A stretch of 64,000 nt of DNA, from the NCBI GenBank assembly GCA_921293015.1, contig OV121088.1, forward strand, positions 3,286,001-3,350,000, written 5' to 3'. The notes under the pieces were generated by a model that ran no database searches, was not told the DNA's origin, and saw nothing but the letters and a program-made list of their open reading frames with translations. Of the stretch, positions 10,425 through 60,118 are shown piece after piece (within the stretch, counting starts at the first letter, position 1; each line of letters begins with the position of its first letter). A program made the translations under genes and the position numbers. Source of the stretch: Phorcus lineatus. Taxonomy: Eukaryota; Mollusca; Gastropoda; Trochida; Trochidae.

Positions 10425-13400
10425 GTAAGTGATTTAGCTCGCCAGTCTGATTTTGATATCAATGCAAAGAATATTCGAATTTTGGATTTCTGATCATGTT
10501 ATTGTTTCTAAGATGAAATTTTCAACTATTTAGAGAACATTTTAATTGATATATAAATAATTTGTTTCATATATAGTTTCATTTTTCAATCATGTGTTCA
10601 AATTACATTTACATTTCACTAACTATCGCAAGGGAATGAACTTATTGATTACCCTTTTAAATGGGGTTACAGACACGTCAGAGGTCGCCTGGCGAAAGGG
10701 TCGGGTATCACATTCTGATCACATTGCCTGATAATGTTTTAAAGTTAGCTATTTGTCGATTGATACATTCGAAACAATGCTTTGTGCTGGATGAGTTGAT
10801 ATTGATGCGTTTGACAACAGCCCCTTACCAACAGTGACTTGGGACATCGTATTGGACAGTTTGTGGAAATCGAGAATGGCAAGCCATACAGAGTAACTAT
10901 AATCATTTTTAATATATGTGTACTAACCACTTACTTTTAAATTTAATTTGATTCGATGTCATTCAGGACTTTACAATTAATTAGAATTAAATATTTTTTA
11001 CAATGTTGAGAGTGTAAAACTGTACTATCAGACCCAATGTGTCATCAATAACCAAGTTATAGCATCATGTGAAATATTATTCATAACATGTGTAGAAAAA
11101 CATATACCCTCGCCAAAATCGTATACTGTGAATCGGACCTCTTTGTGCTATACAGGCAACCTACAGATGCATACTTTTACCATTGTTTTTATTAACTATA
11201 AAATTAAACCCGCTGAGTTAAGATATTGTGAAGGAATGGCGATTCTTACCGTAGAAAAGCTTTTGACCTACCGTACAGAAAATCCATTTGAACGTATAAT
11301 CCAGATCTGTCGTATCTTTGTTGTATATACATAGAAATTCATATAGGGCATGTATTATTGGATAGTTTGATAACACTAACAACCAAATTGTCTGATGTTT
11401 GTATTTCCTTATACGATAAGCGTTGCTTTCACATAGAATACACGACTTCTTCAAATGTTTGTATTCTAGTTATTCATCTATTGTGAAGTTAATGTATTTA
11501 CATGTTAAAATGGTTCTGTGTAAAATTGTCACGTTGAAAAGGACCTAGAACGATTACAATGATTAGTAACATAGCACGACCACCACGACGGTTCATCTAC
11601 GGTGATGTTTGTACCTTTTGTCGATGAGGAAATATTTTACATAGCAGGCAGAAACGGAAAATGAAATATACAAGTAGATATTAAATCATTCAACCTAACT
11701 AGATACAGGGAATGTCCAATGAAATTGACAAATGATTTGTAACTTTGTTTGCAAGTACTCCGTGAGTTGTTGGAGTCATATAGGCCAAACTTAATCAATG
11801 GTGTCATTTGATCGCGAAGTATCAACTGTTACCAAAAAGACATGTTTTGAATCTTATTGGTTTTTTACACTGACAATATGAGGGTAGAACGTCGCAATTA
11901 TGATCGAAAACCGGACAGTGGCGCGCGTGAAATAGTCAAACGTAATTTCGGAGAATTATCTAAAACAGCCAGGAGGGCAGCAAGGAGTTGATAGTGTTTG
12001 TTAGGTTATATTACTAGTATCTATGTATATTGGACGTGATATCTACCCCTCTGTGCATCTATAAGGCTGTTTTTAGATTTTCATGGACAAACAGTATTTG
12101 TCATATGTCTTTTGGACATGAAAATTTAAGATGTTTTGATTTTATATCACCACATATGACATTTAGGTTCGTATTAAAGGTAAATAATATGTCATGAAAA
12201 TCACGGAGTGGCTCTTTAATCCACCATGTTTTGGTCTTTATTGCATAATCGACGTCAAGCGATGTCAACATGTGTGGATCGCGATAGTTTGATATAACAA
12301 TCCAAACACCTCCGGTGGATAAAAATAGATTTCGAAAATCACGGTCTACCGGAAATACCAGAAGAATGGTAATTCAAGGCCTAATTCATATCATAAAACA
12401 ATTATGGACTTCAGACTCGGTTGATCCAATGATTTATCGACCTTGGACATGTGATATTCACCTCGGCTTCGCCTCTGTGAATATCACACGTCCAAGGTCG
12501 ATAAATCATTGGATGAACCTAACTTGAAGTCAATAATTTTTTAATATTATGAATAAATCTTAATATGTCTATGTGTTTTGAAAGAGATTATTTTAAGAAA
12601 ATACCATGCATATTTTCAAATCCATTTACAGTCGTGGTTGTATGAACTGCTTGCACGTGAACCGGAAGACGAAAACATTCAACATTCAGCATATGACCCA
12701 CCTGATCGCTCATTGGTTGGAGACATGTTGTTAACGTTCAATCAGATGAAAGCATTATCAAGAAATGTAAGGGATGAACTTCAAACCATTTAAATGCTAT
12801 TTCACTTGCACGGATATATCGATTCTTATATGGGTGAACAAATCAAGACGGGAAATTCTTTTAAATTCCAACGGGAAAGCTATTAATTTCCACTCAAATA
12901 CAAAATGATGTATTGACTTCAAATGCCAAATATTTTTACCACTTTACATTTTCAAATGCCATTCTCTTTACCAGTTTAGATCTTCACATGCCATTATCTT
13001 TACCAATTTACCTCTGCACATGCCATTATCGTTACGAATTTACCTCTGCACATGCCATTATCGTTACGAATTTACGTCTTCACATGTCATTATTTTCATC
13101 AATTTATATTTCCACATGCCACTACTTTTATCACTTTGCATCTTCGCTTTCAGTTATTTTGACAACTTTACATATTCACTTGCCATTATCGTTACCACTT
13201 TACACCGTCACTTGCCATAATCTTTGCCACTTTAAACATTCACATGTAATAATCTTTACCACTTTCTATCTTCACACGTCCATATCTTTACCAGTTTACA
13301 TCTTCACTTGCCATTATCTTACCCACTATACATCTTCACTTGCCATTATCTTACCCACTATACATCTTCACATGTCATTAGATTTACCATTTTACCACAT

Positions 13401-16400
13401 GCTTGTAGTACCGTTACACGTTTGTACAATGTATCACATAATATATATTTCCTCACATCATCTCACACCATATCTGTCATATCTTCTCCCATCTAAATAT
13501 ATCAAATATGTGTCATTTTCATATTTATTTTTTTCTAATATAAATCTCTAAACAGCACACCTTGTATAACATTATAACATATATCACATATCTATATTAA
13601 TTCCTAACATACCATAAAGCTGACTACCACTTGTATCATAATATCAAGTATGCTGCACCTAAAAAATTACATGGTAGCATGTCATAGCAAACACTTTCAA
13701 ATTATAACAAAGTCAATATAAATTTATGTAATAATTCGTTTGCTTTTTTTATTGACACCCACATGTTTACCGACACATTGTATACACACAACTTAATTCT
13801 CAACGCAAATCTAGTCACCAAGTCTCTAAGATAACTTTTATATTAAAATATACATAAAGAGAAAATCTCCATACACCACAAGTTGTGTTTAGCGTTTGTC
13901 AAACATGTCAGTTAATCTTTGCTTGTACATCAAGAAGTAAGATACATCTGACCTTATGGACAATGATGTAAATAACAATAATGGTCTAGAAAATAGTTTG
14001 TCTTACTTCATTAATTGTCTCTGCAATTCCTTGATTGTTGATGAAAAAAGGAAGATATCATCTGCCTGCAACAACAAAATTTCCTTGGTAATATTCAGAT
14101 GAAGCTGAAAGTTATGACTGAAAAAGTAGAGACAATAGGTTTTAAACGCACCCTTGTCTCATCCCAAACTGATTTCAGAAATCTCTTTATTATTGCGTTC
14201 ACATACTTTTACATTTTCTTAAATGTTTCCAATAGTTTATTCATTATGGTGCCAAGGCCATGTCTTCTTAAAATATTTCAATTTCCAAAAGCTTTTGCAA
14301 AGTCAGAAAAGAGTCCATAAAATCTCTCCCTTTTGACACTCGGATACCTGTTAAAGTTTGTTTAATAAATATGTTTGTGATACCGAGGGACGTTGGCGCG
14401 CGCCATTGACTCAAACGTAATATTGGAAAAAAATACAACAAAGACAAAGACAAATATGGATTGGTAATGTTTAGTAGGTATTTAACTGATATTTATGTTC
14501 ATTGGCGGCATTATTTCGACATATTAACATCTATATGATCGTTTCTCGATATTCAGTCAATTTTAGAGATGCAGATTTTGGGAGAGCATAACTCAGGACA
14601 TGTGGTATTTCATTATCATTAATGTTTCACACATATTTATGGTATTTTTAAATGTATTTTCATTAATGAATAATATTTTCAATATAGCATTAATGTTAAT
14701 AGTTTACGTTTTAACATAACATTATAATTTATGATGATATCGTGAGATCCATCTTTAACATTTCACATTTTTTTTTATCTCATTAACATTTTTGATCAAC
14801 ATCTTAGTATTGCATCTATATTTTATATTTCCCATCTTTAAATGCCTGTTTTGTTTTTTATTAACATCTTAATATGACATCACTAATATTTCACATCATT
14901 ATATGCCTGTGCCATTTTTTAATTAACATTCTCTTACTGCATTTTGTTGATTATTTCACATCCTTACAGGACATAATGTTGAATATCTCACATCCTTACA
15001 TGACATTATGTTGAATATTTCACATCCTTACATGACATTATGTTGAATATTTCACATTTCACATCCTTACATGGCATTATGTTGAATAATTCACATCCTT
15101 ACATGACATTATGTTGAATAATTCACATCCTTACATGGCATTATGTTGAATAATTCACATCCTTACATGACATTATGTTGAATATTTCACATCCTTACAT
15201 GGCATTATGTTGAATAATTCATATCCTTACATGACATTATGTTGAATATTTCACATCCTTACATGACATTGAAAATTTCACATCCTAACATGACATTATG
15301 TTGAATATTTTACATTTCACATCCTTACATGACATTATGTTGAATATTTCAAATCCTTACGACATTATTTTGAATATTTCATATCCTAACATGATATCAT
15401 GTTGAATATCTCACATCCGTACCTAACATTATCTTTTTATTTCACGTCTTCCTTTTACCCTTTCTTCTCTCCCGTTTCTATTCAAGGCTACAGAACAAAA
15501 ACGAAAGATTCCGACAAACGCCTTCATGCTGTGGCCTGACGGAATCATACCCTGGATGTTTGACTCGACAGACCGGAAATTTAGTAAGATTTCATTGGGA
15601 GAGGATTATTTGGTAACTTTCCAAATGATCTATTTTTGTCTCGATATTTGTTTGGCATTCCACTTCTAGAGACCAATAGAGTGTCCTTATTTTAGAAGAA
15701 TATGAATACACAGACGAGCATATTTCTTCAATGACTTCAATTTCTTTAAAGAGCCACTCCGCGATTTTCATAACGTATTATTGCCTTTGAAACGAACCTA
15801 AATGTCATATGTGGTGATATAAAATCAAAACATCTTAACTTTTCATGTCCAAAAGACATACATATGACAAATACTGGTTTTCAACGAAAATCTAAAAACA
15901 GCCTTATAAATGCACAGAGGTGTAGATATACATGGATACCAGTTATATAACCTAACAAACGCTTTCAAGTCCTAACTGCCCTCCTAGATGTTTTAGATAA
16001 GTCTCCAAAATTACGTTTGACTATTTGACGCGCGCCACTGTCCGGTTTTCGATCATAATTGCGATGTTCTACCTTCATATTGTCACCGTAAAAAACCCAG
16101 TAAGCTTTAAAATGTGTTTTTTTGGTAACAGTCGATACTTCGCGATCAAATGACACCATTGATTAAGTTTGGCATATATGACTCCAACAACTCACGGAGT
16201 GGCTCTTTCAAGGGGAACAACAACCCTAGCCTTTCAGACCTAATTGACCAGCAGTTACGTAATTGCCATAGCCGGGAAATAGGTCACGTGACACGGACTG
16301 GGCGCCGGCCAAGCGGTCATTGTGACAGGGGAATCCCCTTTATGACATGCGATCGTTGATTGGCTTATTCATTTTCGTTCCCGACACGATGCCTGTATTC

Positions 16401-26545: not shown

Positions 26546-29499
26546 GAAGATATGACATTAGAAGGTGTGCTGTCAAAGGTTGGAGAGGTGGTTATATGGT
26601 GAGATATGACATTAGAAGGTGTACTGTGAGGGGTTGGAGAGGCGGTTATATGGTGAGATATGACATTAGAAGGTGTGCTGTCAAAGGTTGGAGAGGTGGT
26701 TATATGGTGAGATATGACATTAGAAGGTGTACTGTGAGAGCCTGGAGAGGTGGTTATATGGTGAGATATGACATTAGAAGGTGTACTGTGAGAGGCTGGA
26801 GAGGTGGTTATATGGTGAGATATGACATTAGAAGGTGTACTGTCAAAGGTTGGAGAGGTGGTTATATGGTGAGATATGACATTAGAAGGTGTACTGTCAA
26901 AGGTTGGAGAGGTGGTTATATGGTGAGATATGACATTAGAAGGTGTACTGTCAAAGGTTGGAGAGGTGGTTATAAGGTGAGATATGACATTAGAAGGTGT
27001 ACTGTCAAAGGTTGGAGAGGTGGTTATATGGTGAGATATGACATTAGAAGGTGTACTGTGAGAGGCTGGAGAGGTGGTTATATGGTGAGATATGACATTA
27101 GAAGGTGTACTGTCAAAGGTTGGAGAGGTGGTTATATGGTGAGATATGACATTAGAAGGTGTACTGTCAAAGGTTGGAGAGGTGGTTATATGGTGAGATA
27201 TGACATTAGAAGGTGTACTGTCAAAGGTTGGAGAGGTGGTTATATGGTGAGATATGACATTAGAAGGTGTACTGTCAAAGGTTGGAGAGGTGGTTATATG
27301 GTGAGATATGACATTAGAAGGTGTACTGTCAAAGGTTGGAGAGGTGGTTATATGGTGAGATATGACATTAGAAGGTGTACTGTGAGAGGCTGGAGAGGCG
27401 GTTTCATGGTTAGATATGACATTAGAAGGTGTACTGTGAGGGGTTGGAGAGGCGGTTATATGGTGAGATATGACATTGGAAGGTGTACTGTGAGAGGCTG
27501 GATAGGCGGTTTCATGGTTAGATATGACATTAGAAGGTGTACTGTGATGGGTTGGAGAGGTGGTTATATGGTGAGATATGACATTAGAAGGTGTACTGTC
27601 AAAGGTTGGAGAGGTGGTTATATGGTGAGATATGACATTAGAAGGTGTACTGTCAAAGGTTGGAGAGGTGGTTATATGGTGAGATATGACATTAGAAGGT
27701 GTACTGTGAGAGGCTGGAGAGGCGGTTTCATGGTTAGATATGACATTAGAAGGTGTACTGTGAGGGGTTGGAGAGGCGGTTATATGGTGAGATATGACAT
27801 TAGAAGGTGTACTGTGAGAGGCTGGATAGGCGGTTTCATGGTTAGATATTACATTAGAAGGTGTACTGTGAGAGGCTGGAGAGGCGGTTTCATGGTTAGA
27901 TATGACATTAGAAGGTGTACTGTGAGGGGTTGGAGAGGTGGTTATATGGTGAGATATGACATTAGAAGGTGTACTGAGAGGTTGGAGAAGCGGTTTCATG
28001 GTTAGATATGACATTAGAAGGTGTATTGTGAGGGGTTTGAGAGGCGGTTATAAGGTGAGATATGACATTAGAAGGTGTACTGTGAGGGGTTGGAGAGGTG
28101 GTTATATAGTGAGATATGACATTAGAAGGTGTACTGTGAAAGGTTGGAGAGGTGGTTTTATGTTGGGATATGACATTAGAAGGTGTACTGTGAGAGGCTG
28201 GAGAGGCGGTTTCATGGTTAGATATGACATTAGAAGGTGTGCTGTGAGGGGTTGGAGAGGTGGTTATATGGTGAGATGTGACATTAGAAGGTGTACTGTG
28301 AAAGGTTGGAGAGGTGGTTTTATGTTGAGATATATCATTAGAAGGTGAACTGTGAGAGGCTGGATAGGCGGTTTCATGGTTAGATATGACATTAGAAGGT
28401 GTACTGTGGGGGTTGGAGAGGCGGTTTTAAGGTGAGATATGACATTAGAAGGTGTACTGTGGGGGGTTGGAGAGGCGATTTTAAGGTGAGATATGACATT
28501 AGAAGGTGTACTGAGAGGTTGGAGAGGCGGTTTCATGGTTAGATATGACATTAGAAGGTGTACTGTGAGAGGCTGGAGAGGCGGTTATATGGTGAGATAT
28601 GACATGAGAAGGTGTATTGTGAGGGGTTGGAGAGGCGGTTATAAGGTGAGATATGACATTAGAAGGTGTACTGTGGGGGGTTGGAGAGGCGGTTTTAAGG
28701 TGAGATATGACATTAGAAGGTGTACTGTGAGGGGTTGGAGAGGTGGTTATTTGGTTAGATATGAAATTAGACGTTGTATTGTAAGAGGTTGGAAAGACGG
28801 TTTCGTGGTTAGATATGACATTAGAAGGTGTGCTGTGAGGGGTTGGAGAGGTGGTTATATGGTGAGATGTGACATTAGAAGGTGTACTGTGAAAGGTTGG
28901 AGAGGTGGTTTTATGTTGAGATATATCATTAGAAGGTGAACTGTGAGAGGCTGGATAGGCGGTTTCATGGTTAGATATGACATTAGAAGGTGTACTGTGG
29001 GGGTTGGAGAGGCGGTTTTAAGGTGAGATATGACATTAGAAGGTGTACTGTGGGGGGTTGGAGAGGCGATTTTAAGGTGAGATATGACATTAGAAGGTGT
29101 ACTGAGAGGTTGGAGAGGCGGTTTCATGGTTAGATATGACATTAGAAGGTGTACTGTGAGAGGCTGGAGAGGCGGTTATATGGTGAGATATGACATGAGA
29201 AGGTGTATTGTGAGGGGTTGGAGAGGCGGTTATAAGGTGAGATATGACATTAGAAGGTGTACTGTGGGGGGTTGGAGAGGCGGTTTTAAGGTGAGATATG
29301 ACATTAGAAGGTGTACTGTGAGGGGTTGGAGAGGTGGTTATTTGGTTAGATATGAAATTAGACGTTGTATTGTAAGAGGTTGGAAAGACGGTTTCGTGGT
29401 TAGATATGACATTAGAAGGTGTCTGTGAGAGGTTAGAGAGGCGGTAATGTGGTGAGATATGACATGATTAGGTGTATTGTAAGAGGTTGGAAAGGCGGT
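26546..29499. repeat. 54-bp minisatellite, about 54 units
   Basis: The unit starts GTGAGATATGACATTAGAAG, continues GTGTACTGTGAGGGGTTGGA and ends GAGGCGGTTATATG. Variant classes (CAAAGGTTGG, GAGAGGCTGG, GGGGGTTGG; TTATATGGTG, TTTCATGGTT, TTTTAAGGTG) occur in runs. Because 54 is 18 codons, stop-free frames persist on both strands. The plus frame repeats MVRYDIRRCTVRGWRGGY and the minus frame repeats a Ser/Thr/Pro-rich 18-mer. There is no promoter, splice signal or non-repeat protein context, so I treat it as satellite DNA. It resumes at 31233 after a LINE insertion. Confidence 0.95.
28231..29412. repeat. tandem 591-bp higher-order duplication inside the minisatellite
   Basis: 28231-28821 and 28822-29412 appear identical or nearly so, including rare variants (GAGATGTGACATT, TATATCATTAGAAGGTGAAC, ATGAAATTAGACGTTGTATT, GGTTTCGTGG). 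The offset of 591 bp is about 11 units with some shortened units, pointing to a recent unequal-crossover duplication. Confidence 0.9.
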
Positions 29500-31232
29500 A
29501 ATAATAATAATAATAATAAGAGGATTTATATAGCGCGTTATCCACATCACTCAGGGACATGCTCTAAGCGCATAACATATATACAGCTTATATACAGTAA
29601 AGGTAGCGTTCAGATATATCGCTGGAACAGATGTGTTTTGAGTCTGGACTTGAAAGCAGGGAGAGATGGAGAGGCTCTAAGATCTTGTGGAAGGGAGTTC
29701 CATAGAGTGGCAGCAGCATACGAGAATGAATTTGCACCAAAGGTTTTCAGCTTATATTTGGGGACCACTAGTAGAAGTTTATCACTGGAGCGGAGGGATC
29801 GTTCTGGTTTGTACAAATGTAACAAGTCCTGTAGATATGCTGGTCCGATGTTGGAAATGGTCTGGTAGACAAGGGATAATACTTTAAATTCAATCCTCTC
29901 GCGAATCCGGAGCCAATGAAGAGAATTTAAAGCTGGTGTAATGTGAGAGCACAACTTTGTCCTTGTGACTATTCGAGCAGCTTGGTTTTGTATTTTCTGG
30001 AGACGCTGTAGCTGTTCCTCCGAGATACCAAATAGTAAACTATTGCAGTAGTCAAGGCGGGTTAGAACTAGAGTCCGAACGAGGGTGGCTGTTGCTTCCA
30101 TGGTTAGGATGTTGCGTATCGAACCAATATTCCTCAAATGATAATAACAGGTTTTACAAATGTGGCTGATGTGACTTTTCATACTTAAATTTGAGTCCAA
30201 ATAAACACCAAGATTTCTCACAGAGGTCGAGAAGGGGATTGAAGATTGTCCTATAGAAATGGAGGTGAGCTGACACTTCTGCTGTCGTTGACGCGGAGCA
30301 ATAATAATGGCTTCTGTCTTACTGTCGTTTAAGACAAGTTTGTTGCTGGTCATCCAGGACTTTACATCATTGAGACAGGACTCCATTTTGACCTTGGCTT
30401 TCTGCTGACTGTCTTTGCATGGCTTGAAACTGTCCATAAGTTGTGAGTCATCTGCATAAAAATGTCTTCCAATGAGATGCTTGATGATGAGTTGTCCTAG
30501 AGGTTTGGTATACATGGTGTAGAGTATGGGTCCTAAAACCGAGCCCTGTGGCACTCCACATTCAAGGATATGGACATCTGACAGTGTTCTGTTAATCTGA
30601 ACGGATTGAGAACGATTTTCAAGGTATGATGAAAACCATTTCAGGACTGTGATGTCTATTCCATACTCAGTCTGTAGCCTTGATAAAAGTGTAGCATGGT
30701 CAATGGTATCAAAGGCAGATGATAGATCTAAAAGTACAAGCATGGCAATATCTCCGTTATCTACAGACATCTTGATGTTGTCCAGAACAGCATTGAGAGC
30801 TGTTTCCGTGCTATGTGCACTCCTGTAGGCTGATTGATACTTGTCAATGAGATCAAAGTTCTGTAAATGGCTAAGCATCTGACTCTTGACAACCTTTTCA
30901 AGGATTTTAGAAATAAAAGAGAGGTTTGAAACCGGTCGGTAGTTGCTTAGGTTTTCAGGTTCTAATGATGGTTTCTTCAACAACGGTTTGATGACTGCTC
31001 GCTTAAAACACCTGGGTACTGTTCCAGATGACAGACTGAGGTTGACAATCCGGGTGATGACAGGCAGGATGGTGTCTAGTATTTTCAGCATGAACTTTGT
31101 AGAGATTGGATCTTCCTCACATGATGTTGGTTTTGAGGATGTTATGATGTTCTTGATTTCCTGTTCCGATATGTTTGTGAATGATGAGAAATGTTCTCCT
31201 TGGAACTCTTGGTAAGAAACATCATCGCAGGC
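29500..31232 (-). mobile_element. 5'-truncated non-LTR retrotransposon (CR1/L2-like)
   Basis: Runs right to left. The 3' end at about 29500-29520 is a (TTA)n tail preceded by a GCGCTATATAAATCC phrase, typical of CR1/L2/Rex-type LINE ends. The 5' end stops abruptly at about 31230, where the minisatellite resumes. No endonuclease domain is present, so the copy is 5'-truncated. No clear target duplication is seen. The insertion splits a 54-bp unit between GGCGGTAAT and TGTGGTGAGA. Confidence 0.88.
29610..31228 (-). CDS. LINE reverse transcriptase, 5'-truncated
   Basis: Open from the truncation point to the stop at 29610; the first Met of the frame is at 31091. Counted from that Met, reverse transcriptase motifs are present in order: YRPVSNLSFISK (51-62), LDLSSAFDTIDH (121-132), GVPQGSVLGP (179-188) and catalytic FYADD (211-215). 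A C-terminal LWNSLPQDLR and FKSRLKTHLF tail common in CR1/L2-type ORF2 proteins follows. It copies element RNA at a nicked target in the nucleus. The frame has no stops, so the insertion is young, but the lost 5' part (endonuclease, promoter) makes it non-autonomous. Clade assignment rests on motif style only. Confidence 0.85.
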
Positions 31233-31345
31233 TGTGTGGTGAGATATGACATGAGAAGTTGTATTGTAAGAGGTTGGAAAGGCGGTAATGTGGTGAGATA
31301 TGATATGAGAAGTTGTATATTTAAGAGGTTGGAAAGGCGGGATAT
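31233..31345. repeat. remnant of the 54-bp minisatellite beyond the LINE
   Basis: About two units (TGTGGTGAGATATGACATGA and a diverged copy with TATATTTAAGAGG) continue the array interrupted at 29499. Confidence 0.9.
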
Positions 31346-31759
31346 GAGATCATTGAGATGCATAATCTCGATTCCGAGAGTTTGTATTGAAGATTTTATT
31401 TTGATGAAGTATAACGAGCTAGAGTACATGACACAAATCTCTTTTTTTTAAATCGGTGTGAGGGAAACAAAAATATCGTACGGACGCCTGATATCCGTTT
31501 AGACTGATATACCAACCACACTCTTTATTGATTGATGCAAGTAAAATAGTCTTAATAAAAAGAGTTTAAAATATTCTGAAGAAGTTTGGTTTTAAAATTG
31601 TTTTATTCCGGTTATTCATTTGAGTTCAGCCGGTATTTATTTGTGTTCATGTCGACGTAGGGCAAGTGCGTGTTATGTAGATCAGTAGTACCTCTGACCC
31701 GTGACTATAGATGTAAATTATCTTGGTAGCGCTTCCTATCTAACATAGAATGGTTGCTG

Positions 31760-45215: not shown

Positions 45216-46258
45216 CGGAATTACGGAATAAGGGAATTTCGGACGGAACTGAAAAATTTATGCCTCCGGCAAAGCTTTTTTGCGGGTGACATAATTAGAA
45301 CTCCCAAACAGTTGAGGAGTCTGTATACAAGGATTCAGATTTCTAGGCCTTTCCCTTCTGGAGAGGAAGGTGAATATCCAGGGTCACCAATACTATGAAT
45401 TAGAATCTCAGTAAAATAAGAAATCTATTGCTTTTGGAGAAGAATATAAAAATAGTTTTAAGGGCGTGATCCCATTGGCCCTTATTAAAAAATCAGTAGA
45501 GACTGAATTGGAATATATATCTAAGCCTTTTTTCTTATCAAGATTAATATGCCGTTTTCTTATACTTATACTACTTAAATGCCTATTTTAGCTATCAGCA
45601 TAAAAAGTGCAATGAATACACGATTGAAAGTTAGAAAACAAAACGATAAATTGCACTTTTAAAAGGAATGTTCTCAAGAGACGTAATTGAATATCACAAT
45701 ACATTTTGCGACCACGAATTAATCCTATAATCTTTTCCTAAAACCAGTTCAATGTAGTCCATTGTAGTGCTTTGGTGATGAGATAAACCCAGAAATACGG
45801 TGGTTACTGAGAGACTGGAGGGCGATGCAGTGTTAAACTAACAAACTGTGTTGACAGAGTGATTTGACCCGACCTACTTTGACAATCTGGCCAGGGCAGC
45901 CGTCTCATGATATACTGAATTACGAATACTTTATAGCATAGCATCAACTGTCGATGAAAACCTGAATTCTAGATTGTAGAGTTGATGGTCGTGCCCATCC
46001 ACACGAAATTTGCAATCTGAAACATATCCCGTACATGTTCGATAGTGTTGAGGACCGGCGAACGGGCAGTCCATTTTGGACGATTCTCTCTAGCTATAGG
46101 AACTAGAGGGAGGGGAGGGGGGTATTCAATTTATTCACGATTTCAGGCTCGATCTCCTTCATGCAATATGAATTTCTCTTGAATTGCACTAGAACATAAG
46201 ACTTGGACACTTTTAATTTGTGTGGGGCTATCCAAAAGGCTCCTCTCGATGGTGATAT

Positions 46259-46808
46259 TAACACAGCTTGTAATACAACATATGTGTTTCTCCACTTAAA
46301 GTGGCAAGCCGGTTATAAAAGATGACAAACAAGAAGACTTTGTGTTTTTCTTCTGTATTTTCTGCGGGAGGTTTTCACCAGAACTTTTACAATAATGGCG
46401 TCCACAGGCGAGAGAAGTCGGGGATTGTGTCACGCCGTAGCTGCGACTCCGAACCTGTCTGCCTGGTTTACGCTATGCACGAGCCTTTATAGATTATGGA
46501 CAATAGGGTCATTTAACATTAAAACTACACACCAGATGTCAGTTTGAAACTGTTGCAATATGTCAAGTCCGGAGAACAGCGGCCGTTCAATTACTGCATC
46601 GGGCTCTGATTAGCGTGGCGAGGGGATGCTTTGATCCCCGCCGACGTGCTCTGATTAGCGTGGCGAGGGGATGCCTTGATCCCTGCCGACATAAGCCACT
46701 TCACTGGGAGCGTGGCAAGGGGATGGTTTGAACCCTGCCGACTTGAGACACTTCACTGAGTATTTATCATGAAACAGAAAATTATATATGAACAGTTACG
46801 CTATGACA
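46259..46808 (-). repeat. 3' LTR
   Basis: Differs from the other LTR at about seven positions, all within its first 110 bp as numbered on the plus strand. The remaining roughly 440 bp appear identical. Contains three internal GC-rich subrepeats with the phrase GCGTGGCGAGGGGATG (46603-46745). Confidence 0.9.
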
Positions 46809-46824
46809 AATTCCTCCGCCCCCG
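46809..46824 (-). promoter_or_regulatory. polypurine tract of the LTR element
   Basis: On the minus strand CGGGGGCGGAGGAATT abuts the TGTCATAG start of the 3' LTR, the position where plus-strand DNA synthesis is primed in LTR retrotransposons. Confidence 0.7.
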
Positions 46825-46846
46825 GTGAGACTCGTCCTCGAGTCTC

Positions 46847-47989
46847 CTAATGCGGTTTGTGGTGTGCATTCGAGTATGTTGAAGATGAGTTGAGTCCAGC
46901 ACAGTTGGGGGAGATTAGACCAGGAATCTGCCAGCGGGTGGATGGACATGGTTTGTGGTCAACATGAGAAGATTTATGACTGTCGTGCATTATGTTGTGG
47001 TGAGGATTTGAATAATTCTGATATTGTTTACATCTAAATTCTAAACTTCTTACATGTGAATTTAGTCTTGATATTTCTTGATTCTGCCGTATGGAAGCAC
47101 GTTTATGGACCAAATTTTCTAGCTGAAGATCTTGGAATTGTTTTTGTAAAATGTTTATTTCCGTTTCTTTGTCTTCAATATTTGCCATATTTTCAATATG
47201 TAATGCTTCATTCTCACGCGTTAATTCTTGGTTCTCCTCTTCTAGCAAAGAGACTTTGTCTGTTAACCTACTTATGGCATCTAACAGCGGACCGGTTGTG
47301 CTAACACAATCGAAAAATGATCTAATTCCTATGTTCGAAAAGGGTAATTGTCTAGCCAAATATTTTCTAACATGGAAGTCTAATTTTCGAAATGAATCTC
47401 TTTCGTTTCTCTTTGAAGATTTAGTATTTGGCTTTTGAAATGAATTTTTCTCTAGTTTCTGATGTTCGCCTCGATTTTGATTTTGATTTTTGACTTTAAG
47501 TGCATATACGGCAGAAGCATGATGGCCAGAAGAGAGTGTCTTACTTGTAATTGAACTGTGCCCTACGGTAGGGTAATTTCTAGGTTTTGAAGGTGAAAAA
47601 TACAAAGGGGCATCAAAACAACAAATAGTCAAATGACCAACCTGACCACACAAGAAGCAGTTTTTGAAATTAGCATGACAGTCAACTTCCTGATGAGAAG
47701 ACCACTTACCACATCGCCGACAGCGGTGATCCTGGTGTAGATCAGTGTGTTTGTCCTGCCACTGACGTTGACGGCTTGCAGTCTGTCTCATTCTCCAGTG
47801 AGATGGGAAGAAGGCTGTCATGTCTGCTCCTCTGTGTTGGTCGGGATGATCCTTGACTCTGCCGGAGGTAGAAGTTTCTTCTCTGGGGGTTATGAAACCG
47901 AATGTAGTTTCTCCGAGAAGTCCTCGTTCTTTTCTCACAGCAGGGGGGACTCCACCAGGTACCGGAATACCACTTAACTTTAAGAAAAG
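46847..47989 (-). CDS. gag-like protein with two zinc knuckles and a coiled coil
   Basis: Single open frame on the minus strand between the LTRs. It opens after a TAG at 47990-47992 and has no ATG until 47821-47819, so the true start is unsure (non-ATG start, splicing or a frameshift from an upstream frame are possible). Counting from 47938, Cys73-x2-Cys76-x5-His82-x4-Cys87 and Cys94-x2-Cys97-x4-His102-x4-Cys107 are two CCHC-type zinc knuckles, the second with canonical Gag spacing. They should bind element RNA. A basic Asn/Lys/Arg-rich linker follows, then a predicted coiled coil at about 215-290 (LLEEENQELTRENEALHIEN and onward). A His/Ser-rich tail ends at 46847. No capsid fold could be recognised by eye. 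A coiled coil after the knuckles is unusual for Gag. Confidence 0.7.
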   Translation of the reverse strand, partial: LFLKLSGIPVPGGVPPAVRKERGLLGETTFGFITPREETSTSGRVKDHPDQHRGADMTAFFPSHWRMRQTASRQRQWQDKHTDLHQDHRCRRCGKWSSHQEVDCHANFKNCFLCGQVGHLTICCFDAPLYFSPSKPRNYPTVGHSSITSKTLSSGHHASAVYALKVKNQNQNRGEHQKLEKNSFQKPNTKSSKRNERDSFRKLDFHVRKYLARQLPFSNIGIRSFFDCVSTTGPLLDAISRLTDKVSLLEEENQELTRENEALHIENMANIEDKETEINILQKQFQDLQLENLVHKRASIRQNQEISRLNSHVRSLEFRCKQYQNYSNPHHNIMHDSHKSSHVDHKPCPSTRWQIPGLISPNCAGLNSSSTYSNAHHKPH

Positions 47990-47996
47990 CTAAGTA

Positions 47997-48012
47997 CCTC
48001 TGTTCAACACCA
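47997..48012 (-). promoter_or_regulatory. possible primer-binding site
   Basis: TGGTGTTGAACAGAGG on the minus strand, two bases inside the 5' LTR. It starts TGG as expected for pairing with a tRNA 3' CCA end. The tRNA was not identified. Confidence 0.5.
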
Positions 48013-48014
48013 AT

Positions 48015-48564
48015 TAACACAGCTTGAAATACAACATATGTGTTTCTCCACTTGAAGTGGCAAGCCGGTTTCAAATGATGACAAACAAGAAGACTTTGAG
48101 TTTTTCTTCTATATTTTCTGCGGGAGGTTTTCACCAGAACTTTTACAATAATGGCGTCCACAGGCGAGAGAAGTCGGGGATTGTGTCACGCCGTAGCTGC
48201 GACTCCGAACCTGTCTGCCTGGTTTACGCTATGCACGAGCCTTTATAGATTATGGACAATAGGGTCATTTAACATTAAAACTACACACCAGATGTCAGTT
48301 TGAAACTGTTGCAATATGTCAAGTCCGGAGAACAGCGGCCGTTCAATTACTGCATCGGGCTCTGATTAGCGTGGCGAGGGGATGCTTTGATCCCCGCCGA
48401 CGTGCTCTGATTAGCGTGGCGAGGGGATGCCTTGATCCCTGCCGACATAAGCCACTTCACTGGGAGCGTGGCAAGGGGATGGTTTGAACCCTGCCGACTT
48501 GAGACACTTCACTGAGTATTTATCATGAAACAGAAAATTATATATGAACAGTTACGCTATGACA
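48015..48564 (-). repeat. 5' LTR
   Basis: Partner of the repeat at 46259-46808, the same length, flanked outside by ATAT. As the 5' LTR it should hold the element promoter; no core promoter motif is obvious. Confidence 0.9.
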
Positions 48565-48965
48565 ATATCACAGTGTTACTGATCATTTAGTTGAAGGGAA
48601 GAAACAGGACCTTTTGGAAGCATGACAAATCTTCCTTGTTTCGTCAGTTCACCTCAAAATGGAAAAAGGTTTTCTTTTATCTACTAAGTACTTATCTAGA
48701 CTTGGAATGACGGTAAATGAAGGTTCAATTACAGTTCAACTAATCAAGATAAAGCAAATAGTCAACCGTTGAATACGGCCTTCCCACAGGTGGATATAAA
48801 TGTAAGACATCTATATGTATAACAGCCTGTGGTATACTTAAACACGCTTTATAATCATCATAATCTTAAGAATGTAAATCAATCATTATCTTACAGCTGT
48901 GTTTTAAATAAAGATTGTTTAATGACGTGCATTGAAGAGCATACTTATGTGGCCACAGATGTCAC

Positions 48966-49371: not shown

Positions 49372-50165
49372 TTGCAGGAGAAAGCCTGCTATGCATTGCG
49401 GTGAAACCTGCAGGCATCGGTAGGTACTAGCGAACCATGGGCGGTACTGCAGTGTAACATTTTACCCAATCCTTAAAGGCTCTAGTGCACGCTTTTACGG
49501 TTTAAATTGGTGATTTTAAGGTTTACGATGACTTATGCATTCACTTAAACTTTCTATCGATGCAATGATGTACTACACATTCTTTACAATTTACCTGCAA
49601 TTAGCAATGAAAACGTTAAGACAGTCGCTGCCGGCTTCGACATATACAAATCTATGGTTAGCTGTGCACAAAACGGATGGATTATTGACACTTGGAAACG
49701 GCTGAACTAGTACTGTGTGCAGCTATTGAATTTACCTAAACTCTGAACTGAGAACAAATCATGATATATGTTTTATGAAAGGAATGTTGTAAATTAACCG
49801 ATTTAAGAACAAGGTATTGGCATAGTTATTAGATTGACCATAGCGGCTGCCGTTTCCGCTTTTCTCGTTATGAGCAAAATCTTAATATTTCCGATATCGT
49901 AGTTCATGCGGATTGAATGTAACGTAACATTAAATACTTCCGGCCTTTAAAAATCCACTTTACTACCTGAATACGTAAATATTTGTTAAAAAACTTACGA
50001 GGTAGATTACTTTAGTGAGGATAGTGAGTAATATCGAGGGATATGCAGTATTTGTGAATTCGTTGTTTTTTTCGAAATATTGGTGTGCACTAGTGCGTTT
50101 AATGCATGTAAAGCAGTTCCCTACTACAAACAGAGGGATACGAACCTCGGCGGGGCAGAGCGTTT
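49372..50165 (+). mobile_element. SINE interrupted by a MITE
   Basis: 49372-49482 aligns with 9316-9432 (TATGCATTGCGGTGAAACCT, GCATCGGTAGGTACTAGCGA). The alignment resumes after the MITE at 50103 (TGTAAAGCAGTTCCCTACTA) with what follows at 9433 and beyond in the intact copy. The interruption lies exactly at a TTAA. Confidence 0.7.
49483..50102 (+). mobile_element. MITE family B, copy 1 (TTAA target)
   Basis: 620 bp bounded by TTAA. The left terminus is AGGCTCTAGTGCACGC and the right terminus, inverted, ACGCACTAGTGCACAC. The interior matches copies at 56612-57224 and, reversed, 59060-59733. The TTAA duplication suggests mobilisation by a piggyBac-type transposase. No protein is encoded. Confidence 0.88.
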
Positions 50166-52423: not shown

Positions 52424-52932
52424 ATTGAAAAGGAACTCTCAGTAACATTACCATGAACGCAATAAAAAACAAAAACTTTAAAACCCGAAAAAGCACATCA
52501 ACATATGCTGCTTAAACCACGAATCAAATTTGCTGTGCTATTGTTTTTTGAGTCCGGAACGATGTCCGGAAAATCGGGAGGTCGGACGGGGTCAAATTTA
52601 ATATCCAACACCAACTTCGTGTAATAACTATCTGATTTTGGAGTGAAATAGGTTCATGTTGACATTTGATGTGAATGGCCTTGTCTAGGATTCATAAAAA
52701 CACGGCAGAAATTGTTCCACTAAATTCAGAGCACAGGGCAGACTCAATCGTCACCTTAGTAATGCAATAAAACAGTTTTTCCCTCGTATTTCAACTATAA
52801 AAATGATCCAGGGAAAACTTAATTATTATTAACTTTTTGTACTAGGAATTAAAAAGTTATAATGTTTCGTTCCATGTTGAATGAATAAGAGACTCTCCAC
52901 GACGTAGTAGAAAATATTTAACATATGTATAA

Positions 52933-54362
52933 TGATTTGATATGACATTTTAGCATACTAGTATCATAAACTACTATACGAAGTATATTAGTAATGCTGT
53001 ATTATATAACTTTTTTCATCCGGGAGAATTGTAAAAGTATGGTGAGGCTATAACAAAAAAATTCTTGATTCAACAAACTTAAGAAAATCAACTTAAATGA
53101 TTTGATATGACATTTTAGCATACTAGTATCATAAACTACTATACGAGGTATTAGTAATGCTGTATTAAATAACTCTTTGCAACCGGGAGAATTGTAAAAG
53201 TATGGTGAGGCTATAACAAAAATTTTCTTGATTCAACAAAGTTAAGCAAATCCACTTCAATGATTTGATGTGACATTTTAGCAAACTAGTATCATAAACT
53301 ACTATACGAGGTATTAGTAATGCTGTATTAAATAACTCTTTGCAACCGGGAGAATTGTAAATGTATGGTGAGGCTATAACAAAAAAATTCTTGATTCAAC
53401 AAACTTAAGCAAATCCACTTCAATGATTTGATATGACATTTTAGCATACTAGTATAATAAACTACTATAAGTATCAGTAATGCTGTATTAAATAACTCTT
53501 TGCAACCGGGAGAATTGTAAATGTATGGTGAGGCTATAACAAAAATTTTCTTGATTCAACAAACTTAAGCAAATCCACTTCAATGACATTTTAGCATACT
53601 ATCATCATAAACTACTATAAGTATGAGTAATGCTGTATCAAATAACTCTTTGCAACCGGGAGAATTGTAAAAGTATGGTGAGGCTATAACAAAAAATTTC
53701 TTGATTCAACAAACTTAAGCAAATCCACTTCAATGATTTGATATGACATTTTAGCATACTAGTATCATAAACTACTATAAGTATTAGTAATGCTGTATTA
53801 AATAACTCTTTGCAACCGGGAGAATTGTAAAAGTATGGTGAGGCTATAACAAAAAAATTCTTGATTCAACAAACTTAAGCAAATCCACTTCAATGATTTG
53901 ATATGACATGTTAGCATACTAGTATAATAAACTACTATAAGTATTAGTAATGCTGTATCAAATAACTCTTTGCAACCGGGAGAATTGTAAATGTATGGTG
54001 AGGCTATAACAAAAATTTTCTTGATTCAACAAACTTAAGCAAATCCACTTCAATGATTTGATATGACATTTTAGCATACTAGTATAATAAACTACTATAA
54101 GTATTAGTAATGCTGTATTAAATAACTCTTTGCAACCGGGAGAATTGTAAAAGTATGGTGAGGCTATAACAAAAAATTTCTTGATTCAACAAACTTAAGC
54201 AAATCCACTTCAATGACATTTTAGCATACTATTATCATAAACTACTATAAGTATTAGTAATGCTGTATTAAATAACTCTTTGCAACCGGGAGAAATGTAA
54301 AAGTATGGTGAGGCTATAACAAAAGTTTTCTTGACTCAACAAACTAAAACAAATCCACTTCA
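52933..54362. repeat. satellite-like tandem repeat, 150-166-bp unit, 9 copies
   Basis: Units start at about 52933, 53099, 53262, 53425, 53585, 53735, 53895, 54055 and 54215. Each has GATATGACATTTTAGCATAC, TAATGCTGTATTAAATAAC, CAACCGGGAGAATTGTAAA and GGTGAGGCTATAACAAAA. Two units (53585, 54215) share a deletion of GATTTGAT, implying block duplication of three to four units. The last unit runs into an exon-like frame. Confidence 0.95.
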
Positions 54363-56611: not shown

Positions 56612-57224
56612 TTAAAGGCACTGGTGCACGCTTTTACGGTTTAAATTGACTTTTTAAAGGTTTACGAGGACTGGTGCATTCACAATAACTTTCTTTCGAT
56701 GCAATGAAATACTAAACATTATTTACAATTTACCTGCAATCAACAATGAAAATGTTAAGACAGCCGCTCTCGGCTTGGACATATACAAATCTATGGTTAG
56801 CTGCGCACAAAACGGGTAAATTATTGACACTTGGAAACGGCTGAACTAGTACTGTGTGCAACTATTGAATTTACCTACACTCTGAACTGAAAACAAATCA
56901 TGAAATATGTTTCATGAAAGCAAATAAGTAAATTAACCGATTTAATAACACAATATAAGCATTGTTATTAGATTGACCATAGCGGCTGCCGTTTCCGCAA
57001 AATCTTAATATTCCCGATATCGTAGTTCATTCGGATTTAATGTAACGTAACATTAAATACTTCCGGCCTTTAAAAATCCACTTTACTACCTGAATACTTC
57101 AATATTTGTTAAATAACTTACGAGGTAGATTACTTGAGTGAGGATAGTAAGTAATATCGAGAGATATGCAGTATCTGTGCAGTCGTTGTGTTTACGAAAT
57201 ATTGGCGTGCACTAGTGCGTTTAA
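56612..57224 (+). mobile_element. MITE family B, copy 2
   Basis: TTAA at both ends. Termini are AGGCACTGGTGCACGC and, inverted, ACGCACTAGTGCACGC. The interior aligns throughout with copy 1, lacking about 15 bp near the GTTTCCGC segment. Confidence 0.9.
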
Positions 57225-59059
57225 TGATGATTATCATATCGAGACTTTTGCGTTCTAATAAATTACGATTTTGATCGAAAAACCGAAAATCTACATGAAA
57301 ACGCCAATAATTAGATAGGATGAATGGCGAATTTCTAAATCAACCTCATAAAGGCTCGCTAGACACACACCCCTTGTACAATGTCCAAGTCAAAGTTCGA
57401 ACTTGTAGACTATTGTACAATTATAGACTTGATTCAAGATGTCATGAAAACTTGTCAATCTTTGATTAATACGTCTTTGTTTACATTATATAAGCTCTAC
57501 CCGTAATGCTTTACACCTCTGACTGTTTCTTTATAAGTAAGAATTGCAAAATGGTTGACGAGAAAATATTTTAAAAAAACAAATGCTGACCACCCGATGG
57601 TTACCACATATGTACTCAGCTGGCAATAATTCAACCAGAACACTATGTCCCGTTTGTACGCGATGCATCCCTGACACGATACTTATAGTGTGTGTATGAA
57701 ATTTAGATTTCATTAAAGTTTCAAGCATGGTTGCTAATCTTTGTGAAGAATGAAAAACTGAAAAAATAATTATACATTACTGAACTTGGTTCAAATTGAA
57801 ATTCATGTAATCATAGTCACTTTATTCTATATTCCTTTATGACGGAGCTACCTCTGTTGGGAGAGAATGAGTCACTGTACGTCTTGACTGCAGCAATAAT
57901 TAAGAATCGTATGATTCATCATAAATAAGCAAATGATACTGTTGTCGTCGCTTACAACTATTCTAATTTCTATATTATTATTATTATTATCATTATTATT
58001 ATTATTTTCTTATTATTATTATAAAAGAAATCGTGTATAAACTGTCCCTTATTATGACTTAAATCTGATTGGCTGGTTTACTGCTGTATACTTTCAACTT
58101 AAACTGAGTAAGTTGTTCGAGTCAATCTTTATCTCAGAGTTATATTCATGCTAGAGGTAGTAAAAGTTTCAATCAAGGCAAGAAATCTTTATATTTTTGA
58201 AATCTTACAAGAAAAGACGTGTTCAAGATTGTGAAGGAAGTAGCTAGGGAGACTTTCAGATGAATACGACACAAAGTTATTGCCTTTTCATATTCTTGTT
58301 TCAGAGAGGAGGAAGTATTTTAACAAGAGGTAATGGATCACATGTCAATACCCTTATTAAGTGGTCATCTTCAATAAAAGGAATGTATTTTTATGAAATA
58401 TTAATCAGTTTCAATATGTATTTCTATAACACAGACTTGTCACGACAACAATGTGAAATTTTGAGAAGGATTTCCAAACATACACGTCGATTCTGACCTC
58501 GACTTAAACGCGGGTCAGTTGTCATCATTTAGTTTGACGTTTGCAACAATATACAGGTATGTAGATAATGCCACAGATGATACTTACCAGATAAATGTTT
58601 CGTCCACAATCCCTTTAAATAATATTACAAAAGAGGAACCAGGGTTTGAAAAAGCACCTGAACCTCCCTATACTTGAAAGTCCAGTGAAAGTTTCTGAAA
58701 TCAATGTTTTAGATCTCCTTCTAAAGTACGTCGAATTCACCACCCAACTCCCAGTCCAAATTTGGTCTTGAAGGTTATTTAAGGAATAAATGTTTTATAG
58801 ATATAAAGATTAATAGATATGTTGTTACATAATAGATAAGTGCATCGAAACTAACCCTGCCCCCAATCCCTCAACCATACACACGCAAGCGCACATTAAC
58901 CTCAAATCCAAACCGATACCCTAACATCCCCCCCCCCCCCTAGTTCATTGATCCGACCACAGTGTTCGTTGTTTCAACAGGGAGTTTGACACGTATCCTA
59001 TTACCATAGAGTCATAAATCGTACCTTCTGCATACAAAGACGCGTTTGAATTGCCTTAC
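57225..59059. other. non-coding stretch with an ATT microsatellite
   Basis: An (ATT)n microsatellite occupies about 57974-58021. A C-run lies at 58929-58940. Short frames at 57531-57728 and 58260-58496 have no recognisable domains. Confidence 0.55.
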
Positions 59060-59733
59060 CTAAACGCACTAGTGCACGCCAATATTTCGTAAACACAACG
59101 ACTGCACACATACTGCATATCTCTCGATATTACTCACTATACTCACTCAAGTAATCTACCTCGTAAGTTATTAAACAAATATTTACGTATTCAGGTAGTA
59201 AAGTGGATTTTTAAAGGCCGGAAGCATTTAATGTTACGTTACATTAAATCCGCATGAACTACGATATCAGAAATAATAAGATTTTGCTCATAACGAGAAA
59301 AGCGGAAACGGCAGCCGCTATGGTCAATCTAATAATAATGCTAATACTGTGTTATTAAATCGGTAAATTTACAACATTGCTTTCATAAAACATATTTCAT
59401 GATTTGTTCTCAGTTCAGAGTTCAGGTTAATTCAATAGCTGCAAACAATACTAGTTCAGCCGTTTCCAAGTGTCAATAGTTTATCCGTTTTGTGCACAGC
59501 TAACCGTAGATTTTTAATAACAAATGTCTACTTCCAGGGAAGACACCGATTTTTATAAGACCAAGCGGCAGCCAACAGCGGCTGTTTTAATGTTTTCATT
59601 GTTGATTGCAGGTAAAATGTGAAGAATGTTTAGTATTTCATTGCATCGATAGAAAGTTTAAATGAATGCATAAGTCCTCGTAAACCTTAAAATAGCCAAT
59701 TTATACCGTAAAAGCGTGCACTAGTGCCTTTAA
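59060..59733 (-). mobile_element. MITE family B, copy 3 (inverted, with insertion)
   Basis: Reverse complement of copies 1 and 2, bounded by CTAA (mutated) and TTAA. It carries extra sequence of roughly 50-60 bp near 59515-59570 and is therefore longer. Confidence 0.88.
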
Positions 59734-60118
59734 GATAAGCCACATTTAAACCGTACGAAGATTTGTTCATTTCCGTTCACTCTTCCTAAGTAAAGACCCG
59801 ATACTATCATGAACTCCAAGAATTAAAAAAAGTATGCACCCCTGCTTAAATGTTGGCCATAGGAAAATATAGAAAAAACATTGGTAGATTAAAATAATTC
59901 ATACTATCTGTAACTTTGGGAATACAATATGGAAAAAGCTTCCAGAGTATGGCGACAAAATAAGTTAGAGGTTTTTTAATTTATAAGATTAACATTTCAT
60001 CAGGTGCTCAACGTTAAGATATGTCATAATTGATAATTTAAGAAATTTCAATATCCCTGATTACTATTGAATATCGGTAATATGGTGACATCACCTGTAT
60101 GACGCCCAGGTGAGTATG

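Follow-up and report, generated by a model that had tools for sequence, protein, structure and literature searches.

Non-autonomous LTR elements are usually non-coding or carry a recognisable Gag, and TR-GAG elements, which belong to the second kind, have been described in plants. In the excerpted rules of the classifier Inpactor, assignment to TR-GAG depends on a recognisable Gag domain, or Gag plus protease (PMC6022998). For animals, bivalves included, excerpts of the description of Helenus define TRIMs of 311 to 1263 bp that have tRNA-derived LTR sequence and no protein; they make 4-bp target duplications, presumably rely on Gypsy elements for their movement, and have LTRs that retain a box B with GGTTC (PMC10886601). 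According to the same excerpts, the only autonomous elements with primer regions resembling those of animal Helenus were Gypsy elements (PMC10886601). For TelKA2n, a non-autonomous element of bdelloid rotifers, excerpted text gives the retained frame as env-like, and the TelKA env-like proteins as having a membrane anchor (PMC5408684). Judged by titles and the starts of abstracts, the open-licence literature on TR-GAG consisted of plant, method or algal works. A search of the same literature for a gag-only non-autonomous LTR retrotransposon gave no match, where absence does not equal unpublished, and the two papers in it that held most terms for a non-autonomous molluscan LTR element with a zinc knuckle and a coiled coil were, by title, not about one.

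Structure of the LTR element

During our analysis of a 64,000-nucleotide stretch of the Phorcus lineatus genome (contig OV121088.1, positions 3,286,001 to 3,350,000; hereafter the window, to which all coordinates refer) we identified a structurally complete LTR element of 2306 bp on the minus strand (46259-48564), with an interior of 1206 bp (Table 1). Its LTRs form a gap-free alignment in which 543 of 550 positions are identical, and their termini are TG...TA, versus the usual TG...CA. A 4-bp match such as the flanking ATAT is expected by chance about once in 256 cases by our own arithmetic, yet here it directly adjoins both ends of the 550-bp repeat, and the joined flanks give an insertion point, GTGATATCAC, that is a small palindrome. 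Paired LTRs together with a target site duplication identify this as an LTR retrotransposon, and the original prediction of paired 550-bp LTRs with ATAT on both sides proved exact in its coordinates, with 7 mismatches in 550 positions. The complete ends and the duplication indicate that the 2.3-kb form integrated as such, or that a later shortening spared the ends. The prediction had gone one step further, taking the complete termini to mean that the short interior was the element's natural content; this step fails because a deletion arising within one round of reverse transcription still integrates with complete termini.

Table 1. Features of the element and its target site, in window coordinates
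Feature	Position	Strand	Details
Target site duplication ATAT, copy 1	46255..46258		
3' LTR	46259..46808	-	550 bp; 7 mismatches vs 5' LTR
Three GC-rich hairpin-folding units, 3' LTR	46600-46742	-	counterpart of 5' LTR units
Polypurine tract	46809..46824	-	ends AATT at 3' LTR
Single long open frame	46847..47989	-	380 codons + stop, stop to stop
His/Ser-rich C-terminal tail	46850..47023	-	9 His and 10 Ser in 58 residues
AT-rich middle block of interior	46958..47672		34% GC; flanks 50% and 54%
Probable coiled-coil segment	47024..47290	-	~89 residues
Knuckle 2, CX2CX4HX4C	47618..47659	-	residues 111-124
Knuckle 1, CX2CX5HX4C	47678..47722	-	residues 90-104; five-residue spacing
Candidate primer binding site TGGTGTTGAACAGAGG, weak	47997..48012	-	2 nt from 5' LTR; TGG start
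5' LTR	48015..48564	-	550 bp; TGTCATAGCG at start, GCTGTGTTA at end
Three GC-rich hairpin-folding units, 5' LTR	48356..48498	-	starts spaced 45 and 52 bp apart
Target site duplication ATAT, copy 2	48565..48568		

In the coding orientation the interior opens with AT-TGGTGTTGAACAGAGG and closes with CGGGGGCGGAGGAATT at the 3' LTR. The latter is a convincing polypurine tract, as had been proposed, while the primer site proposed along with it is weak: in a comparison with eight animal tRNA complements, which may not be those of the host, the best was Phe, with 11/18 matches (8 of the first 10), and the Val complement matched at 10/18 (7 of the first 10). We rejected self-priming, in which the primer site would pair with the element's own LTR, as the best local match was equalled in 28% of 2000 shuffles. 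The GC-rich units of the LTRs are each ~46 bp long, with folds of -15.9, -13.5 and -11.8 kcal/mol (values taken without a shuffled control), and inside one of them is GGGTTCAAACC, which is box B-like. We found no tRNA genes with ARAGORN and none with Rfam at E up to 10, where the matches were to three snoRNA families, all far below their gathering scores; a tRNA- or 5S-derived origin of LTR sequence was rejected on these searches. Core promoters could lie at TATATA (position 21 of the LTR, accompanied by TCAGTG at 50) or at TATAAA (position 318), and there is no AATAAA or ATTAAA in the 5' LTR.

All seven LTR mismatches are on the U5 side within 85 bp (46271-46355 in the 3' LTR, 48027-48111 in the 5' LTR), which confines them to 7/97 at the variable end, versus 7/550 overall, and leaves the other 453 bp identical. 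For seven random places the probability is 1.25e-5 that one terminal 97-bp stretch, the first or the last, receives all of them, and 8.75e-5 that some 85-bp span does. This clustering suggests that gene conversion partly homogenised the two LTRs, or that they were collapsed in the assembly, and because all differences are at one end we consider LTR identity a poor clock for this element.

Coding content of the interior

Nearly all of the interior is filled by one open frame, which begins 25 nt past the 5' LTR and ends 38 nt before the 3' LTR, and which from its first ATG (47821) encodes 324 aa. By either count (380 codons, or 324 from the ATG) it is longer than every longest frame in 2000 interiors simulated with a second-order Markov model (median 100, 95th percentile 152, maximum 255 codons), and the single protein that had been proposed for the 1206-bp interior is represented by a frame beyond chance length. 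GC by codon position is 0.48/0.41/0.33 over the frame and follows the same order (0.61/0.52/0.36) over the 56 open, ATG-less codons ahead of the first ATG (47822-47989, minus strand); since this order is coding-like, albeit over few codons, translation may include this stretch, by way of a non-ATG start, of splicing or of a spliced leader. In simulations with substitutions only (no indels), the frame remained stop-free in 68.1% of 1000 copies at 0.64% divergence per lineage and in 12.7% of 1000 copies at 3.6%, which is a hint, and a hint only, that the element is young or that the frame has been kept.

Ahead of the first knuckle there are 89 residues, which are few for a capsid. Both CCHC-like knuckles retain all of their cysteines and histidines, and no Pfam model attained its curated cut-off over the frame, knuckles included (zf-CCHC scored 14.5 bits with the knuckle segment, under its cut-off of 20.8). 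A search of the whole frame against solved structures at E up to 1 gave one match, to a Gag nucleocapsid chain, presumably of HIV-2 type, over the knuckles (E 0.6). The knuckle segment by itself, with an E limit of 10, gave 19 matches; 14 of these were named as Gag, nucleocapsid or capsid proteins, and they were weak (E 0.044 to 9.8). From these matches the knuckles would appear to resemble those of retroviral nucleocapsid, weakly but in one direction. A loose HX3H...CX2C pattern, such as that of an integrase zinc domain, also matched over the knuckle region; we rejected this reading because the same cysteines are accounted for by a pair of neighbouring CCHC spacings and by the resemblance to nucleocapsid.

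An interior of 1206 bp is too short for protease, reverse transcriptase (RT), RNase H and integrase. Pfam, in a scan of the long frame alone among the six, listed no such family for it, which agrees with the proposed lack of pol, and two narrow active-site patterns, for protease and RT, had no match in any of the six frames. Nor did Pfam list a Gag or capsid model for this long frame with an E limit of 10, at which the HMMER filters drop most matches above 0.1. We found no membrane-like segment in the frame, the maximum 19-residue hydropathy (1.27) being over knuckle 2, and rejected an env-like protein on this basis. Given that no pol domains were found in the frame, the element does not appear to be an autonomous member of Ty3/gypsy; and since neither pol nor a Gag/capsid model was seen, it would be unable to copy itself and movable only by a partner.

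The 109 residues after the knuckles are basic (19 K+R versus 7 D+E). A 100-residue segment containing the putative coil matched 19 Pfam families (E limit 0.5), of which many have the names of coiled-coil families, and nine heptad-shuffled controls of 98 residues matched 3, 14, 3, 2, 2, 2, 0, 2 and 1 families. A simple heptad score of our own failed to set this region apart from its 300 shuffled versions (10.4, versus a shuffled maximum of 11.5 and mean of 7.7), and, crude as it is, speaks against a very regular coil. We therefore regard the coiled coil, which is supported by the Pfam matches, as probable rather than proven. As to the protein architecture originally predicted, the two CCHC-like motifs and the His/Ser-rich tail are present as described, and the long coil is probable only.

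The best two-break segmentation of interior GC gave 49.7% before ~47672, 34.3% from there to ~46958, and 54.0% after, with a gain of 17.1, versus 8.5 for the highest of 100 triplet shuffles. The first break is inside the frame, between knuckle 1 and knuckle 2. This mosaic fits an element assembled from pieces, and amino-acid content may contribute to it.

Genomic surroundings

Within the window there was no second copy of the LTR, interior or frame at the E limits used. Scans of IMG/VR viral contigs, prokaryote genomes and phages, collections unlikely to hold a relative, found none; the contig scans used a few exact peptide patterns, which reach close relatives only.

The window has a GC content of 36%, a CpG observed/expected ratio of 0.75, many tandem repeats, and remains of non-LTR retrotransposons (RVT_1 E 2.4e-28, zf-RVT 2.2e-7), a combination that would suit an invertebrate host. 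The RVT_1 match is to a 579-codon reverse transcriptase frame on the minus strand (29610-31349), non-LTR in type by its look, whose upstream end overlaps a short repeat of 54-bp units (31235-31340). A 54-bp minisatellite at 26548-29503 (~55 copies, 89% matches), the unit being a multiple of 3, contains open frames of 493 and 525 codons, one per strand. Other repeats include a 160-bp satellite at 52931-54362 (9 copies, 92% matches) and three copies of a ~630-bp repeat that are 83 to 88% alike (49472-50104, 56612-57226 and 59061-59734, the third inverted). An inverted pair of ~460 bp (11757-12219 and 15746-16200, 88% alike) encloses 32-bp tandem arrays at 12917-13395 and 14933-15432 and is possibly a foldback element.

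Proposed origin and mobilisation of the element

The reading that we favour, with confidence a little better than even, is that of a non-autonomous, pol-less LTR retrotransposon (with Ty3/gypsy as its probable superfamily) that encodes a chimeric nucleocapsid/coiled-coil protein, would be mobilised by an autonomous partner and may belong to a family of copies. The 4-bp duplication and the type of knuckle agree with this probable superfamily assignment. Beyond the ends and the duplication, the steps by which such an element would move follow from general knowledge of LTR elements. Transcription would begin within the 5' LTR and yield an RNA that encodes one small nucleocapsid-coil protein, predicted to bind RNA via the knuckles and to oligomerise via the coil, perhaps aiding the entry of element RNA into the partner's particles. 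Once packaged in such a particle, the RNA would undergo tRNA-primed reverse transcription from ~48012, with the second strand primed from the purine tract, and the partner's integrase would insert the product and generate the 4-bp duplication.

The alternative that survives best, which we consider unlikely though worth serious weight, is that the element is a single deletion or recombination derivative, in which template switching, while a full gag-pol element was being reverse transcribed, deleted capsid and pol in one event or stepwise and fused the knuckles in frame to some downstream part, e.g., the last portion of pol or a third, accessory frame. Such a derivative would have complete ends because integration comes after the template switch, and the GC change point at ~47672, within the frame and between the knuckles, is as expected of it, since a one-off fusion also gives a mosaic. 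However, it requires that capsid was lost before the knuckles and pol after them with the frame left intact, and the frame has neither a trace of pol by Pfam nor a membrane-like segment.

Capture of a host transcript, as in retroviral transduction, would instead make the coil part a piece of a cellular gene lying between the element's ends. The AT-rich middle of the interior (34% GC) is nearer to the window average than the interior ends are, and the whole frame has a single Pfam match under E 0.01, to HAP1_N (1.4e-5), which is also the best family for the coil segment; there its E-value of 6e-5 beats the best of the shuffled controls (1.7e-4), and HAP1_N itself was matched by 0 of 9 controls. 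Yet the whole-frame match is below its cut-off (24.9 bits versus 33.9), and because one control came within a factor of three, via another coiled-coil family, it scarcely exceeds what a generic coil would give. The sole match of the coil part to solved structures at E up to 10 was vimentin (E 6.3). Without rejecting a HAP1/TRAK-derived coil outright, we find it hardly above a generic one, and host capture improbable. That the frame is no functional gene at all, the element being a LARD- or TRIM-like non-coding passenger and the frame a decaying remnant still open by happenstance, we consider very improbable: the first 56 codons lack an ATG and a young remnant is often still open (as in the 68.1% of simulated copies above), but the frame is far beyond chance length, has a coding-like order of GC by codon position and keeps every knuckle Cys and His in place.

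If the partner-mobilised, pol-less element that we favour is taken further, it could represent a lineage, in animals, of LTR elements lacking both capsid and pol, in which a trans-acting adaptor kept under selection, nucleocapsid zinc knuckles fused to a coil, brings the element's own RNA into the particles of a partner; this is a speculative extension that we put forward as doubtful. If true, the element would be a packaging parasite that carries its own packaging factor. An element that keeps of Gag just the RNA-binding portion, joined to a coil for oligomerisation, would demonstrate that retrotransposon parasites can retain packaging alone, and with so small a protein the cis-preference of packaging would become testable.

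Comparison with known systems

Judged by the excerpted description of Helenus, the element resembles that group in being non-autonomous, in its 4-bp target duplication, and in having GGGTTCAAACC in one LTR unit, to be compared with the GGTTC of box B; however, at 2306 bp, with a protein frame and no tRNA found, it does not belong there. It shares with TelKA2n, as far as the excerpts on that element go, the form of a non-autonomous LTR element in an invertebrate, but differs in having no membrane-like segment. The likeness to TR-GAG is in the LTRs, the purine tract, and the one frame with a Gag-type motif and no pol found; the difference is that the frame here has knuckles and a probable coil only, with no Gag/capsid model, and it is outside TR-GAG as defined by a recognisable Gag. 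The original prediction of a gag-only, TR-GAG-like lineage accordingly retains its non-autonomous look and its Gag-type motif, and is weakened because no Gag/capsid model was listed and only 89 residues precede the first knuckle. At 2306 bp the element is within the LARD range of at least 2000 bp, with complete ends and no domain at curated cut-off, and the excerpted Inpactor rules would class such an element as a LARD (PMC6022998). Unlike LARDs, which are without any domain, it has an open frame far beyond chance length.
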